Part shown: piece by piece, positions 51,869 through 60,028 of the stretch
How the letters are laid out: each line of letters opens with the position of its first letter
Position numbering within the stretch: the stretch's first letter is position 1
Source: Flexithrix dorotheae DSM 6795
GTDB lineage: Bacteria > Bacteroidota > Bacteroidia > Cytophagales > Flammeovirgaceae
Assembly (NCBI RefSeq): GCF_000379765.1
Contig: NZ_KB903476.1
Location: 372,204 to 436,203, forward strand
Length of the DNA stretch: 64,000 nucleotides
Direction: 5' to 3'
Made by a program: the position numbers and the translations under genes
The notes under the pieces: model-generated
Database searches by the model: none
Told to the model about the DNA's origin: nothing
Seen by the model: the letters and a program-made list of their open reading frames with translations, nothing else

Positions 51869-54800
51869 ATGTCAAGAAAAATAGTAAAATACTTTGCCTC
51901 TAAAATTCAGGAAAATCCCGATAATTTTTCTACTACACTTAAAGGCCTGATTTCCGTTTTAGCGGCTTACCATTCCGTAGTTTTCATTGAGGATTCCAAA
52001 AACAAATCACAAGGTTATCTATTTCAAAAAACCGGCTTTCAAATCGGAAGTTTTTCGATTAATACTGACACAAACGCAGAGCACCAATTTGAAAATTCTG
52101 ATGTAAATCAACTCATTTTTAGCTTAGACCGGTTTTGCCTATTTCAAAAAAATGAGGCCATCCTCTCAGGATCATATGCCGAAAAATTCCTTTTTTTTAA
52201 AGCACTCAAATATTTTTTCAATTTTGAGTCCGAACAATTCATTGAGGCAAAAGCACAAAAAACCAATATTGTCCGGCATTTGGAACAATTTAAATCTGAA
52301 TTATTGCTGGAAATAGAAAAAAAGGCAAAAAGTGAACGGGTATTCCGGAATAAAAGAAATGAGCTGGTGAATAGACTGCGAAACCTACTTCATCCTAAAA
52401 TTACTCCAGTATTTGTCCACAATCTTCTTATTCAACACCTAATTCTTTCTAATTTTATCGATCAGCTCAATTTACCCAAACAAAGACTTGAAAAGGACTT
52501 CATTTTCAGGGATTTTCAGGAAGTATGGAAGGATCAGGAAGTTGAGGTTCAAAGAAAATACACGCTCTGGGAAAACCTGAAGAGCTATTTCAACGAAGTG
52601 GCAAAATCTTTAAATAGAATTGAGGACAAAATTTTAAAAGGAAAGTTTCTCAGGGACTTTATAAATGAATTTTATGGTGTTTTTTTCCTGGAAAAGTCAC
52701 AAAAAAGACAGGAGGAAATCCCTAATGAAATTCTGGAGTTTTGTGCCAAGGCATTGGATAATTTAATAATAAAAGAAATACATACACAATTTCTAAATCT
52801 TTCACCTGATCTGATTAATGAGAAAAAGTTATTGGGTAATAAGGCTAAATTTTCCCGATTCCAATCCAGTCTGGCTCCTTATTATATTCATCTCCTAACT
52901 AATGAAAATCCAACTGAATTCTTAAACCCCCTCTCTATGTCAGGTTCCTCTGACAATAGCTTGCAGACAAATTTATTTGGAGGAAATGGGGAAGTTTTTA
53001 ATTCAGTGTCTTTAGGCAAAAATAAATTTGATTTCATTGCTTTTAGTGGCAATTCTCTTTCACTGCCAGAAAATGAGTTTCTCCATTTCGAATATTTCCA
53101 AAAAGATAAAAAAGGAGTAGATGACAAGATTAAGGACACTTATTATTTCCATAGTCAGGAACCTTCCAATTCACTATTTGATTCAGGCTTGAAATTCATC
53201 AGGTGGGCTACTGACCAACTTACAGATAAAGGATTGATTTTAGCACTTTTACCTTCTAAATATTTCACTGAAAAAAAATACGATGGATTTAGAATTTCAT
53301 TGGAAAAGGAATTTGCAAAAATCAACCTGATTGACCTGGGGAAAATCGAATTTCAGGATAATTCAGCACCAGCATCTGTTTGGACAAATACAACCTTGTG
53401 CTTTTTGCAGAAAAGTCCAAAAAACACCAAAAAAGCTTTAATTGAATATTATCAATTGCCTTCATGCGATTCTTTTTTCGAAAAACAGACTTTAGTTAAA
53501 TCACTGATTTTTGAGCAGATTGATTTTCAAACAGTTAAACCTCAAAATGGCAATTGGTTTTCGCAGAAATTCTTTGATTTTTTGCCATTGATTGCAGAAG
53601 CAGCAGCTCCGGGAAAATGTATTTTCAAGACCTATTCAAAAGGCATATTCCCACAGGATAGTCAATACCTGATCAAATTTCATCAGGATGATTTGGAGAA
53701 AAAGTATAAGCTTTTTCAAATTCAACAAAATGGTGAACAAAAGGATTTTGCTGTCCGAACCGGATATTACAAACCATTTGTAAAAAGAGAAATGGTTTAT
53801 TCAAAAGATTTGGGAAAGGAATTACAAGAGTTTCCTTCTATTTTCCCTATTGAAAAGGATGATTTTGCCAATCAGCTAATTTGTACTTCTGGCCCGGGCA
53901 GTCAAAACCCTTTTCAGGTATTAGCAACAGATGCAATTACTACTTTTGATTTTCTTGAAAAAACCATTTGCTTCCCTCAATTTTTATGGAGAAATCCAGA
54001 AAAGACTGAAGAAAACATCACAGATTGGTGCTTAAAACAGTTTAAAGAATTTTATATTCCTATCATTACAACACAGATTAAGGAAGCTAAAAACAAGTCT
54101 GTTTTTTTACAGGAAATGACAGAAAAAATTTCCGTTTTTTCCAAAAATCTACCTGTACTTCACAAATTTACTTTAAAAATAGCAGCTATTTTAAAAGCCA
54201 ATAAGAATGATCTTATTGATCCTGAAATGGCACGTGAAATTGTAGACATTATTTTGAGTTTTGAAAAAAAACTCCTGATTTTAGGCAAAGATGCGAAAGA
54301 GCGAAAAAAAATGATTACCACTCTCAAAAATTATCTTTCAGAAACAAAAACTGAATTGCTAAACATTGGGAAAAAGATAGAAGAACTAAAGCAAAAACAA
54401 ACCTGGCTTACCAAACAGAACATTTTCTATTACATTTATGGTATATTGCTCGATCCTGATTTTCAGGGGGAGTTTCAGGAGGAATTAAAAAATAATTTCC
54501 CCAGAATTCCCTTAAAACAAGACTTTTGGAGATATAGTAGTAATGGTAAAAAACTAATGGATCTCCATTTGAATTACAGTGAAATTCCAGGCTTCCCAAT
54601 TAGTAAAAATGAGGAAATTTCAACCCAGGACGTTTCGGAAAAACCGGTATTAAAAGTTAATAAAAACCTTGGTAGCATTTTGGTGGATAGCCATCTTGAA
54701 TTGGGGAATATTCCTCCAAAAGCCTGGGAATTTAAATTGGGAAATTATTCAGTTCTTGAAATTCTGGTAAGAAACTATAAAAAAAAGGGAATCAGGAAAA

Positions 54801-54925
54801 ACACCAATTGGAAGCCCCTTTATCATTATGATTTCTCCTTGTTGAAAGCCCAATTAATCAACGATGTTTCAAGGTTATCTGCACTTAGTATAGAAACTCA
54901 AAAAATTTTGAATAACCAGAAATAG
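51869..54925 (+). CDS. type ISP restriction-methylase-like protein without methylase motifs
   Basis: A 1018-residue protein that aligns by eye with the methylase-specificity half of type ISP (LlaBIII-like) restriction enzymes. Shared blocks: the helical LRNLLHPKITPVFVHNLLIQ-like region (170-190), FYGVFFLEKSQKRQEEIPNE then ILEFCAKALDNLI (268-300), FIRWATDQLTDKGLILALLP (443-462), DGFRISLEKEFAKINLIDLG (472-491), ENITDWCLKQFKEFY (715-729), NIFYYIYGILLDPDFQ (851-866), and DFWRYSSNGKKLMDLHLNYS (885-904). Missing: the SAM-binding DPxxGTG motif and the NPPY motif, where FDFIAFSGNS (387-396) stands. There is no helicase or nuclease. About 115 extra helical residues sit at 731-848. Single gene; role unknown. 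Confidence 0.7.
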   Translation: MSRKIVKYFASKIQENPDNFSTTLKGLISVLAAYHSVVFIEDSKNKSQGYLFQKTGFQIGSFSINTDTNAEHQFENSDVNQLIFSLDRFCLFQKNEAILSGSYAEKFLFFKALKYFFNFESEQFIEAKAQKTNIVRHLEQFKSELLLEIEKKAKSERVFRNKRNELVNRLRNLLHPKITPVFVHNLLIQHLILSNFIDQLNLPKQRLEKDFIFRDFQEVWKDQEVEVQRKYTLWENLKSYFNEVAKSLNRIEDKILKGKFLRDFINEFYGVFFLEKSQKRQEEIPNEILEFCAKALDNLIIKEIHTQFLNLSPDLINEKKLLGNKAKFSRFQSSLAPYYIHLLTNENPTEFLNPLSMSGSSDNSLQTNLFGGNGEVFNSVSLGKNKFDFIAFSGNSLSLPENEFLHFEYFQKDKKGVDDKIKDTYYFHSQEPSNSLFDSGLKFIRWATDQLTDKGLILALLPSKYFTEKKYDGFRISLEKEFAKINLIDLGKIEFQDNSAPASVWTNTTLCFLQKSPKNTKKALIEYYQLPSCDSFFEKQTLVKSLIFEQIDFQTVKPQNGNWFSQKFFDFLPLIAEAAAPGKCIFKTYSKGIFPQDSQYLIKFHQDDLEKKYKLFQIQQNGEQKDFAVRTGYYKPFVKREMVYSKDLGKELQEFPSIFPIEKDDFANQLICTSGPGSQNPFQVLATDAITTFDFLEKTICFPQFLWRNPEKTEENITDWCLKQFKEFYIPIITTQIKEAKNKSVFLQEMTEKISVFSKNLPVLHKFTLKIAAILKANKNDLIDPEMAREIVDIILSFEKKLLILGKDAKERKKMITTLKNYLSETKTELLNIGKKIEELKQKQTWLTKQNIFYYIYGILLDPDFQGEFQEELKNNFPRIPLKQDFWRYSSNGKKLMDLHLNYSEIPGFPISKNEEISTQDVSEKPVLKVNKNLGSILVDSHLELGNIPPKAWEFKLGNYSVLEILVRNYKKKGIRKNTNWKPLYHYDFSLLKAQLINDVSRLSALSIETQKILNNQK

Positions 54926-55048: not shown

Positions 55049-55450
55049 ATGCAAAAACTACCCAAAAAGCAATTATTGATTGTCGATGACAATAGGATAG
55101 ATAATCTTATTATATCCAAGTTTGTGGAGAAAATCACAGATGAAATCAATATACAATTCGAGTTTAATGGCGCCTCAGCCATAACTTATCTTAAAAACTC
55201 CCTTCATTTACCACCATTAATTTTTTTGGATTTACATATGCCTCTTGTAAATGGGTTTGATTTCTTGGATAAATTCGAAAAAGAATTCAGTGAAAAGTTA
55301 CCTCATACCAAGGTAATTGTAATTTCTTCCTCTATCAATCCAGCAGATAAAGCAAAAGCCTTATCCTTCAGGTCAGTAGAAAGTTTTATTTCAAAACCAG
55401 TGGATAAAAAAATTGTATCCCGATTATTAAATATGATTGAAGTCAATTAA
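55049..55450 (+). CDS. stand-alone response regulator (CheY-like receiver)
   Basis: A 133-residue single receiver domain. The acidic pocket is at VDDNRIDN (about 12-19), the phospho-acceptor aspartate in PLIFLDLHMPLVNGF (about 56-70), the conserved serine/threonine in KVIVISSSINP and the lysine in FISKPVD. There is no output domain, so it acts by binding a partner. No kinase is adjacent; the LytS-like kinase at 15930 is far away and of another class. It lies 123 bases after the type ISP-like gene and is probably separate. Confidence 0.92.
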   Translation: MQKLPKKQLLIVDDNRIDNLIISKFVEKITDEINIQFEFNGASAITYLKNSLHLPPLIFLDLHMPLVNGFDFLDKFEKEFSEKLPHTKVIVISSSINPADKAKALSFRSVESFISKPVDKKIVSRLLNMIEVN

Positions 55451-55644: not shown

Positions 55645-56667
55645 TTGAAAACACAAGTTTTATCTGGCTATCAACCAATTAAAGGATTGAAGTTTTTGGC
55701 CTTCGTTTCTTTGGGATTTGTATTACTTTATCTTGCCTTTAAGGACCAGGATCTTTCCGAGGTTTTCAACCAACTGAAATCTGCCAATTATTTTTGGGCT
55801 ATTCCTGTATTTGTTGTTTCTCTTTTTAGTCATATTATCAGGACCATCAGGTGGCAAATGCTCATGAAACCACTTGGCTACAGGCCCGGAATAAAAAACA
55901 GTTTATATGCCTTAATGTGTGGATACCTGGTAAATTATGCTGTACCCAGACTTGGGGAAGTAACAAGATGTGCACTGCTCAACAAAACCAATAATGTCCC
56001 TTTCAAACCACTTTTTGGGACTGTGGTCACTGAAAGAGCTATAGACATATTATGCCTGTTAATATTGATTTTCATTGTTACTCTTATGGAATTCAGTACC
56101 ATTTCAGGGTATTGCTATGAAATTATCTTTCTACCACTTTACTCCCATTTCCTTTCCACTTTACCTGGAATTACCACCATTTTAATCTTAGGTCTACTTT
56201 CCAGCATCATGTTATTTGCAGTCTTTTTAATTTTTAAAAACAGGATCAAAACCAGTCCTGTTTTTAAAAGAATCATACAATTTCTGCAACAAATATGGAT
56301 AGGGATAGCCTCTGTTGCCAAAGTAGAAAAAAAGTGGTTGTTCATCACTATTACCATTACCATCTGGGTAACCTATCTTTTAACTACATACCTGTGGTTT
56401 TTTGCTTTTGAAGAAACAAAAGGGCTTACCCTTGGAGCCGGGCTATTTTTTATGGTAATGGGCAGTATAGGGAAATCTCTGCCAATCCAAGGTGGAGGCA
56501 TGGGCGCCTATCATTATTTGATTACCCAGGCAGTTTTGCTTTATGGGGTCGGAGAGGTTTATGGCAATGCATTATCCATAGTCGTACATGGATTCCAGAC
56601 CGCTTTCTACCTGGTGCTCGGAGGAATAAGTTTTTTTATAATTTCACTTAAAAAACAGACCATATAA
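55645..56667 (+). CDS. flippase-like/lysylphosphatidylglycerol synthase TM-region protein
   Basis: A 340-residue polytopic membrane protein (about eight helices) of the UPF0104/AglD-like family. Landmarks are NYFWAIPVFVVSLFSHIIRT, RWQMLMKPLGYRPGIKNSLY, GYLVNYAVPRLGEVTRCALL and FFMVMGSIGKSLPIQGGGMG then AYHYL. It lacks the C-terminal lysyl-transferase domain of MprF, so it more likely moves lipids or lipid-linked sugars. The start is TTG at 55645; no ATG precedes the first helix. It ends at a bidirectional terminator. Confidence 0.88.
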   Translation: MKTQVLSGYQPIKGLKFLAFVSLGFVLLYLAFKDQDLSEVFNQLKSANYFWAIPVFVVSLFSHIIRTIRWQMLMKPLGYRPGIKNSLYALMCGYLVNYAVPRLGEVTRCALLNKTNNVPFKPLFGTVVTERAIDILCLLILIFIVTLMEFSTISGYCYEIIFLPLYSHFLSTLPGITTILILGLLSSIMLFAVFLIFKNRIKTSPVFKRIIQFLQQIWIGIASVAKVEKKWLFITITITIWVTYLLTTYLWFFAFEETKGLTLGAGLFFMVMGSIGKSLPIQGGGMGAYHYLITQAVLLYGVGEVYGNALSIVVHGFQTAFYLVLGGISFFIISLKKQTI

Positions 56668-58750: not shown

Positions 58751-60028
58751 ATGGAATCAGTAAAGAACTCGATAATAGAAGACGCTAAAACATTTGCACT
58801 TCGTATTTTACAGGACGAAACGCCTAAAAATCTCGAATATCACAATGCGGAACACACGGAAGAAGTCGTAACCGCTGCGATTGAAATTGGGAATGCAAAC
58901 GGCTTGAATGAAGAGGAGATGGAAATTTTGCAACTTGCAGCTTGGTTTCACGATACGGGTCATAGCAAAAGGGTGAACGGACATGAGGAAGAAAGCCAGA
59001 CCATTGCAGAAAATTTCCTTCAATCTACCAGCTATCCAGTAGAAAAGCTATCAAGGGTAAAAAGTGCGATTAAAGCCACAAAAATGCCTCAATCTCCTCA
59101 AAATTTAGTGGAAGAGGTACTTTGTGATGCAGACTTGGCTCACCTGGGGAAAAAAGGGTTTATGGGTAAGATGGCCTCCTTAAGAAATGAATGGCATTCT
59201 CTGGGCAGCATAGATTTTAATGACGAGGAGTGGTACAATTACAATCTAAAATTTATTGATGAACATAATTATTTTACTGAATACGGTAAAACCAACTTAC
59301 AACCCAGAAAGAAAAAGAACTCCAAGAAAATAAAAAAGAAACTAAAGGAGCTGAATGAAAAAAAGGACGATTTCCTTGTACAGGAATTAGGGGTAGACGC
59401 CCGGGAGTTGAAAACTTTGAAGAAGAAGCTTCAAAAAGTACAGGGCAGGCCTGAGAGAGGGATAGAAACCATGTTCAGAACCACTTCACGAAATCATGTA
59501 GATTTTAGTTCAATGGCTGATAGTAAAGCCAATATCATGATTTCAGTGAATTCTATTATTATCACCATTATTATTGGTGTACTCATGAGAAAACTGGATA
59601 GTAATCCGCACCTTATTATCCCTACTGTTATTCTTCTTATAGTTTGTTTAACCTCCATTGTATTTGCCATTTTAGCCACCAGACCAAATGTAACTTCGGG
59701 AAAGTTTAAAGAGGAAGATATTCGGAATAAAAAGGCAAACCTGCTATTTTTTGGAAACTTTCACAAAATGAAACTTTCGGATTTTGAATGGGGAATGCGG
59801 GAATTGATAAATGACAGCGATTATTTATACGGAAGCATGATTCGTGACATTTATTTTCTTGGGGCAGTTCTGGGTAAAAAATATCATTATCTACGAATAG
59901 CTTATACCATATTTATGTTTGGGCTAATCATTGCTTCCATTGCCTTTGTAGTGGCTACTTTTATGTACAATCAGGGACTTACCACCCCTCCTATTGACCC
60001 CTCTGATATTATTGAAGACACGTTCTAA
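58751..60028 (+). CDS. HD-domain hydrolase fused to a Pycsar-effector (PycTM) membrane domain
   Basis: A 425-residue fusion. Residues 10-150 are an HD phosphohydrolase with all ligands: the leading His in EYHNAEHTEEVV, HD in AAWFHDTGHSKR, NGHEEES, and the last Asp in CDADLAHLG. A highly basic, helical linker (about 185-230) leads into a domain matching PycTM (DUF5706, PF18967 from memory). Its parts are FSSMADSKANIMISVNSIII, three hydrophobic segments, NLLFFGNFHKM and VLGKKYHYLRIAYTIFMFGL. PycTM domains are the membrane-damaging effectors of cyclic-pyrimidine antiphage systems. No pyrimidine cyclase gene is adjacent. It ends at a terminator. The HD half could degrade the signalling nucleotide; this is inference. 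Confidence 0.85.
   Translation: MESVKNSIIEDAKTFALRILQDETPKNLEYHNAEHTEEVVTAAIEIGNANGLNEEEMEILQLAAWFHDTGHSKRVNGHEEESQTIAENFLQSTSYPVEKLSRVKSAIKATKMPQSPQNLVEEVLCDADLAHLGKKGFMGKMASLRNEWHSLGSIDFNDEEWYNYNLKFIDEHNYFTEYGKTNLQPRKKKNSKKIKKKLKELNEKKDDFLVQELGVDARELKTLKKKLQKVQGRPERGIETMFRTTSRNHVDFSSMADSKANIMISVNSIIITIIIGVLMRKLDSNPHLIIPTVILLIVCLTSIVFAILATRPNVTSGKFKEEDIRNKKANLLFFGNFHKMKLSDFEWGMRELINDSDYLYGSMIRDIYFLGAVLGKKYHYLRIAYTIFMFGLIIASIAFVVATFMYNQGLTTPPIDPSDIIEDTF

Follow-up and report, generated by a model that had tools for sequence, protein, structure and literature searches.

We analysed a window of 64,000 nucleotides (the whole stretch of DNA under study) from Flexithrix dorotheae DSM 6795, in which an open reading frame at 51869..54925 on the plus strand encodes a protein of 1018 amino acids that we describe as a pseudo-restriction-modification gene product on the grounds of the reading frame, Pfam, phmmer and a survey of its family, the Flammeovirgaceae. 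The frame is intact over all 1018 codons, as a first-pass annotation of the sequence had stated. Further downstream, and of interest as context only, a gene of the LPG_synthase_TM family (55645..56667, plus strand; Pfam and neighbour listing) follows after an intervening receiver-domain gene, and an HD-PycTM gene with a second domain of the Pycsar-effector type lies 3.8 kb downstream and is present in the sister genome as well.

The only Pfam family recovered above cut-off in the protein was Type_ISP_C (PF18135; E 8.1e-49, best stretch residues 838-979); the same scan gave no helicase family, an NCBIfam scan gave nothing, a PHROGs scan gave only families without a named function, and the PADLOC models of IIG enzymes matched. 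Among the solved structures, the best sequence match was the restriction-modification enzyme DrdV (7lo5; phmmer E 8.7e-63), with four collinear pieces spread over residues 81 to 1015, followed by the type ISP enzymes LlaBIII (1e-19) and LlaGI (4e-18). The blocks are collinear with those of all three enzymes, and the claim that the non-catalytic blocks of the type ISP methylase/specificity half are kept in order is thus borne out by the alignment and by Type_ISP_C (E 8e-49).

An AlphaFold2 model built from 15 sequences was of moderate quality (mean pLDDT 72, pTM 0.55) and aligned from residue 1 to 1018 with the DrdV chain 2-1025 (Z 34.9, rmsd 11.3, 842 residues aligned); the scores were Z 28.7 (rmsd 6.2) against LlaBIII, which aligned only from its residue 713 on, and Z 27.8 against LlaGI. 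A model of the Flammeovirga pacifica protein, likewise moderate (pLDDT 68.9, pTM 0.51), aligned with DrdV residues 160-1029 (Z 23.3, rmsd 9.8, 653 aligned), contained an alternating strand-helix core that aligned with M.TaqI (Z 14.6, rmsd 6.0), and, among viral structures, came closest to an ordinary adenine methylase from an uncultured phage. The models therefore resemble the enzymes named, and a lack of such resemblance would have counted against the relationship proposed in the first-pass annotation.

The protein can be divided into the following parts, all on the plus strand: a degenerate nuclease domain that has lost PD...ExK (residues 1-110, 51869..52198; alignment with intact relatives, and the model against DrdV 2-1025); a helical connector or coupler (111-283, 52199..52717; DrdV alignment, with Pfam ISP_coupler found below cut-off in the homologues L023 and L027); the former SAM-binding half of the methylase core (284-410, 52718..53098; alignments, the model being of low confidence here); the rest of the methylase fold, with the former base-flipping loop at about 491-507 (411-560, 53099..53548; DrdV and LlaGI alignments); the target-recognition core (561-712, 53549..54004; alignment with DrdV and LlaBIII, and Pfam Type_ISP_C); a helical insertion common to the dead family (731-848, 54059..54412; alignments, insertion profile and model); and the C-terminal helices and guide (849-1018, 54413..54922; Pfam Type_ISP_C best stretch 838-979). 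Within the SAM-binding half, HTQFLNLSPD occupies the place of motif I (305-314, 52781..52810) and SGNS that of NPPY (393-396, 53045..53056), both as placed by alignment.

The loss of the catalytic residues was read from a main alignment of 44 proteins, picked from the search hits and not at random, that consisted of 28 insertion-bearing rows and 16 others. Both DxxTGTG and NPPY are present in 15 intact relatives; against these, the protein has N310 at the D of DxxTGTG with nothing TGTG-like after it, and S393-G394-N395-S396 at the NPPY place, within FDFIAFSGNS, so the absence of the two motifs that had been noted from the single sequence holds in the comparison with intact relatives. Both motifs are absent in 28/28 insertion-bearing rows and present in 15 of the 16 other rows, the exception (L126) being degenerate. 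Pfam N6_Mtase and Eco57I, which were matched in 5/5 intact relatives scanned as a positive control, gave no match in the 1018-aa protein, L023, L024, L169 or L126.

In the nuclease region, intact relatives (e.g. L116, L117 and L130) have RPDG...GYWES followed by K, versus QG...GSFSINT here. Because the first 110 residues or so align with the nuclease domain that intact relatives carry and the model matches DrdV from DrdV residue 2 onwards, the protein retains a dead nuclease remnant, and the earlier statement that the protein has neither helicase nor nuclease stands for the helicase and has to be amended for the nuclease. The nuclease residues are lost in those copies that keep the domain, among the copies listed; copies of the genera g3 (Flammeovirga), g4 and g5 start downstream of it, and the nuclease part is absent from the Flammeovirga model, whose match starts at DrdV 160. 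In LlaGI, the residues F1133, R1119 and R1138 keep the flipped adenine in place or occupy the gap that it leaves (PMC4872093), and by alignment R1119, F1133 and R1138 correspond to E494, W505 and N507 in the 1018-aa protein (the LlaGI numbering uses an offset of 164 derived from the alignment, and the letters at those numbers agree). The aligned base-flipping loop is 20 residues long in this protein and in L023, the remaining 14 family copies having 7-12.

The insertion is predicted to consist of helices at residues 719-741, 744-758, 762-777, 785-805 and 810-845. That a helical insert separates two normally near-adjacent blocks turned out to be partly right: the insert is real, the stretch 738-850 counting 113 residues in the 1018-aa protein versus 7-9 in 8 of 15 intact relatives, but the other seven have 89-105 residues there, without the LPVL motif, and form a clade of their own in the tree (100/99). 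Since linkers of that length occur in intact enzymes, a long linker alone does not mark an enzyme as catalytically dead, and the insertion identifies the family rather than proving that activity is lost. It was also not gained by this protein, as had been supposed, for the same insertion is found in 16/16 family copies. Across these, P762 (within LPVLHKFT, residues 761-768, 54149..54172, plus strand) and K801 are invariant, and L747, V763, L764, K766 and L805 nearly so. Run against solved structures, the insertion profile gave matches that were mostly weak and of the coiled-coil or helical-bundle type, the best of them to a designed protein (E 5e-4), a result that does not mark its fold as new.

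A profile of the insertion only, run over 390 genomes of the order, matched 24 genomes. Of these, 16 are Flammeovirgaceae, all with E 3.4e-34 or better; G751, G490 and G535 are members from other families, with E between 1e-17 and 3e-8; and the remaining five matched weakly. The last five (G021, G069, G681, G720 and G635) were set aside, as they have only helical or coiled-coil character in common with the insertion; this was judged by eye, for four of them from the proteins (L108 of G069 from its start only) and for G635 from the match pattern. With a wider profile G529 was gained as well, and a divergent subtype emerged in genera g28 (family f2) and g11 (f4) and in G047 (f15), so that insertion-bearing dead copies occur, among those read, in the Flammeovirgaceae (f1) and in five other families of the order (f2, f4, f15, f19 and f22). 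Candidate g28 hits were seen in G066 and G510:C377, and a fragment in G547 (L180). At the level of the class (395 genomes), a match to the whole insertion was found in the genome of origin only; weak matches over insertion columns were observed in G1004, G810 and G360, and later-starting ones in G980 and G881.

Within the Flammeovirgaceae, 17 of the 18 genomes gave a match, one of which (G007; 63 positions, E 4e-4) is not this protein, leaving 16 genomes, our own included, with one copy each of the motif-less, insertion-bearing protein. The two genomes without it are the small ones (2.8 and 3.0 Mb). Both motifs are absent and the insertion is present in all 16 copies, and no intact copy was found within the 18 genomes; decay of a single copy beside motif-carrying orthologues, which the first-pass annotation had named as the finding that would speak against it, is not what the family contains. 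The genome of origin has one Eco57I-type gene above cut-off elsewhere and no second Type_ISP_C protein was found in it; hence the scans gave no intact paralogue of its own kind that could serve as a partner. Matching records of plasmids (210) and phages (2) were all partial, none covering 80% of the query. The open-access literature searched for inactive, domesticated or pseudoenzyme relatives, DrdV, type ISP and Flammeovirga/Flammeovirgaceae contained nothing on this dead family among the matches listed.

The profile search for orthologues did recover relatives with the same missing motifs and the same insertion, which the first-pass annotation had put forward as a check, but that they form one clade is allowed rather than established. 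The free tree separates the dead rows, uniting neither the 16 family copies nor the 28 insertion-bearing rows; holding the 28 together is not rejected (p-AU 0.331, lnL 6.0 lower), nor is holding the 16 together (p-AU 0.169, lnL 5.3 lower). A single common origin is allowed by the tree and, for the family copies, probable, and there may instead have been several domestications or transfers.

The neighbourhood survey showed that the place of the gene is fixed within genera and that its neighbours differ between genera. In Flammeovirga the gene is flanked by polA, which is divergent, and a HIRAN-type gene, which is convergent, in 9/9 genomes (Pfam was run on L027 only, the others being recognised by the likeness of the listed protein starts); in our own genus and g8 the LPG_synthase_TM gene lies downstream in 4/4 loci (the present one, L023, L024 and L026); in g11 the gene precedes ligA in 3/3 loci, and in g28 it adjoins clpP in 5/5 (Pfam on one locus of each). 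A functional link through HIRAN/polA (Flammeovirga) or ligA (g11) was considered and dropped, as the neighbours change between genera, the gene standing beside clpP in g28. Vertical descent is well supported within genera and between g8 and our own genus. For the family as a whole it is presumed, as the gene stands in different places and the tree allows such descent without establishing it. The genes brxC, pglZ and others are the BREX partners that stand beside PglX/BrxX methylases, and none of these was recognised among the neighbours listed, some of which were scanned for families.

Selection was assessed from dN/dS ratios calculated with our own Nei-Gojobori code, the synonymous sites being saturated in many pairs. 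Six Flammeovirga pairs gave 0.021-0.105 (neighbouring genes 0.016-0.128 where computable); in our own genus, the comparison with L023 gave 0.228 at 59% identity (five neighbours, 85-94% identical, 0.02-0.06); ten g28 pairs gave 0.18-0.31; and the g8 pair gave 0.44 at 26% identity with dS saturated. The gene is under purifying selection, as judged by the dN/dS comparison across orthologues that the first-pass annotation had proposed, and usually changes faster than the genes beside it, a fast divergence that also fits weak constraint in some lineages. When nine Flammeovirga genomes were pooled, conservation was highest, among the regions measured, in the one aligned to motif I-NPPY (84% mean identity, dN/dS 0.049), followed by residues 411-560 (78%, 0.057), and the connector, the recognition core and the insertion had 52-56% identity and dN/dS 0.20-0.22 (core 0.20, insertion 0.22); in our own genus, the former pocket was instead the least constrained region (0.457). 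The starts of the Flammeovirga copies are TTG under a mechanical ORF rule, which makes the invariant M1 uninformative. The frames are open in 16/16 family copies, and a coordinate check placed the listed stops of three rows outside the frames.

Taken together, it is well supported that the protein is a catalytically dead derivative of a DrdV-like enzyme that is under selection and kept family-wide, and the original description of a methylase-type protein without catalysis, not in simple decay and possibly a one-gene system, is supported as far as the lost catalysis, the selection and the single gene go. As to its function, the retained fold and the invariant insertion lead us to propose, at about even chances, a domesticated enzyme of DrdV/type ISP stock without its cleavage, SAM and methylation residues that now serves as a putative non-catalytic DNA clamp or scaffold with a partner-docking helical module. 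A single-chain restriction-modification enzyme of that stock would have been domesticated before the family diversified and the gene passed down vertically afterwards, with loss of the residues for DNA cleavage, SAM binding, adenine flipping and methylation; the remaining methylase-like, target-recognition and guide fold would hold duplex DNA, and a partner would dock on the helical module (LPVLxK...K...ERK) that separates the target-recognition core from the C-terminal guide, in a role that is presumably housekeeping rather than defence. The stricter version, in which the family ancestor converted the enzyme into a non-enzymatic housekeeping clamp or chromosome-maintenance scaffold with a docking module that is now a core gene, we hold to be possible, at somewhat short of even chances. 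The recognition fold is retained and the known DNA contacts are retained in part: of the LlaGI guide contacts, K1479 corresponds to K932 and the other two to P926 and Y960 (1/3 basic), the guide-contact part is shortened in Flammeovirga, and the charge is not consistently basic (pI 6.1-9.2). DNA binding is accordingly putative.

These eroded contacts and the inconsistent charge also speak for a rather unlikely alternative, in which the methylase fold was re-used away from DNA, as a scaffold for protein, RNA or a ligand centred on the former catalytic pocket. The conservation of that pocket in the nine Flammeovirga genomes speaks for it, but the reversed pattern in our own genus means that it is no family-wide rule, and the protein has kept its recognition core and some of the guide. 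A one-gene defence or counter-defence protein, be it a decoy, a sensor of DNA modification or a blocker of phage DNA, would suit the descent from a defence enzyme, the PADLOC matches, the divergence faster than that of the neighbours and the HD-PycTM gene nearby; we regard it as distinctly unlikely, given one copy per genome at places fixed within genera and beside core genes, strong purifying selection in Flammeovirga, and a whole-length form not seen on plasmids or phages, some of the neighbours having been scanned for defence families. The modification sensor and the anti-phage decoy suggested by the first-pass annotation are for the same reasons of copy number and place not favoured.

That the protein is still an enzyme, binding SAM and adenine with unconventional residues, finds an argument in the strand-helix core of the F. 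pacifica model and its likeness to M.TaqI, but is very improbable in view of the loss of both motifs in every insertion-bearing row, of the nuclease residues in the domain-keeping copies listed and of the base-flipping loop in 14/16 family copies. Simple decay into a pseudogene, to which the low constraint in g8 and in the former pocket of our own genus could be ascribed, is scarcely credible against open frames in 16 copies, purifying selection and family-wide retention, which agrees with the earlier argument from the intact frame.

Restriction-modification genes are usually mobile, patchy in their occurrence and catalytic. Here every catalytic site that can be judged from sequence is lost, yet the gene is retained in single copy throughout a family, which opens the possible fates of a restriction enzyme to direct testing, and the relatives, which range from intact forms through a degenerate one that lacks the insertion to dead ones that bear it, allow the change from enzyme to pseudoenzyme to be followed. 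Family models label such proteins as restriction enzymes, as PADLOC does here, and the residues say otherwise.

With respect to known systems, DrdV (PDB 7lo5/7lvv) is the nearest. Two papers (PMC11997821, PMC10201449) describe it as a type IIG enzyme that combines nuclease, methylase and recognition domain in a single chain; it agrees with our protein in length, and its domains follow in the same order (nuclease fold at the N-terminus, then helical connector, methylase fold, target-recognition core and C-terminal helices). The 1018-aa protein differs from it in the lost nuclease, SAM and NPPY residues, in the helical insertion of about 115 residues between recognition core and C-terminal helices, and in its single copy, the place of which is fixed within genera. 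As described in PMC4872093, type ISP enzymes are type IIL-like with a helicase-like motor inserted; LlaBIII (4xqk) and LlaGI (5ffj) have the Type_ISP_C specificity domain and fold in common with our protein, which has no helicase and no catalytic motifs and bears the insertion. The absence of the helicase makes its plan DrdV-like, and the initial designation as type ISP-like is therefore right for domain and fold and not for the plan, which is that of type IIG. L126 (Bacteroidetes bacterium UBA2364, 939 aa) is also without an intact motif I (LNPFMRTG), NPPY (TPPG) or nuclease ExK, but it lacks the insertion and has ISP_coupler above the Pfam cut-off, and the BREX PglX/BrxX methylases stand lower in the fold lists (Z 12.1 or less against the model). 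Of the defining features compared, the single-chain five-domain order of about 1000 residues of type IIG is present, with the nuclease as a fold remnant only, and the helicase-like ATPase given for type ISP in PMC4872093, the SAM motif DxxTGTG and NPPY of the gamma-class adenine methylases of both types and the PD...(D/E)xK nuclease residues of type IIG are all missing; the protein belongs to neither type on these features and is a pseudoenzyme offshoot of their stock.

In the window, the gene for the DrdV-like pseudo-restriction-modification protein (51869-54925, + strand), which lacks the catalytic residues, is separated from the LPG_synthase_TM gene (55645-56667, + strand) by a stand-alone response-regulator receiver gene (55049-55450, + strand; Pfam PF00072). 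The sister genome, from the same genus, has no more than some 160 bases of gap (L023 3325-3488) at the equivalent site, where the window has the receiver gene. Further downstream lies a gene (58751-60028, + strand) whose product joins an HD domain to a Pycsar-effector transmembrane domain (PycTM, 2e-39); its counterpart in the sister genome is syntenic and 92% identical. The gene order at locus L119 matches that of genus g8; its genome carries the bin name Thalassovita sp. (MAG NP30), a label that looks wrong, and was grouped with the family of the window, the Flammeovirgaceae.

Two subtypes of the dead enzyme were found in other genera. In three genomes of genus g11 (L111, L112 and L179) the protein is shortened to 534-536 aa and its gene is immediately followed by ligA. 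In genus g28, which belongs to family f2, five genomes (L169, L170, L171, L172 and L182) have a divergent subtype adjoining clpP, and motif loss was seen in four of these five copies (L169, L171, L172 and L182), the alignment having taken in these and not L170.

A relative without the helical insertion (residues 731-848 of the protein in the window) is encoded by a Bacteroidetes metagenome-assembled genome, UBA2364 (L126, 7497-10316). When aligned with its relatives, this protein proves degenerate at motif I, at NPPY and at the nuclease residues, and it may represent a separate or an intermediate case of domestication.
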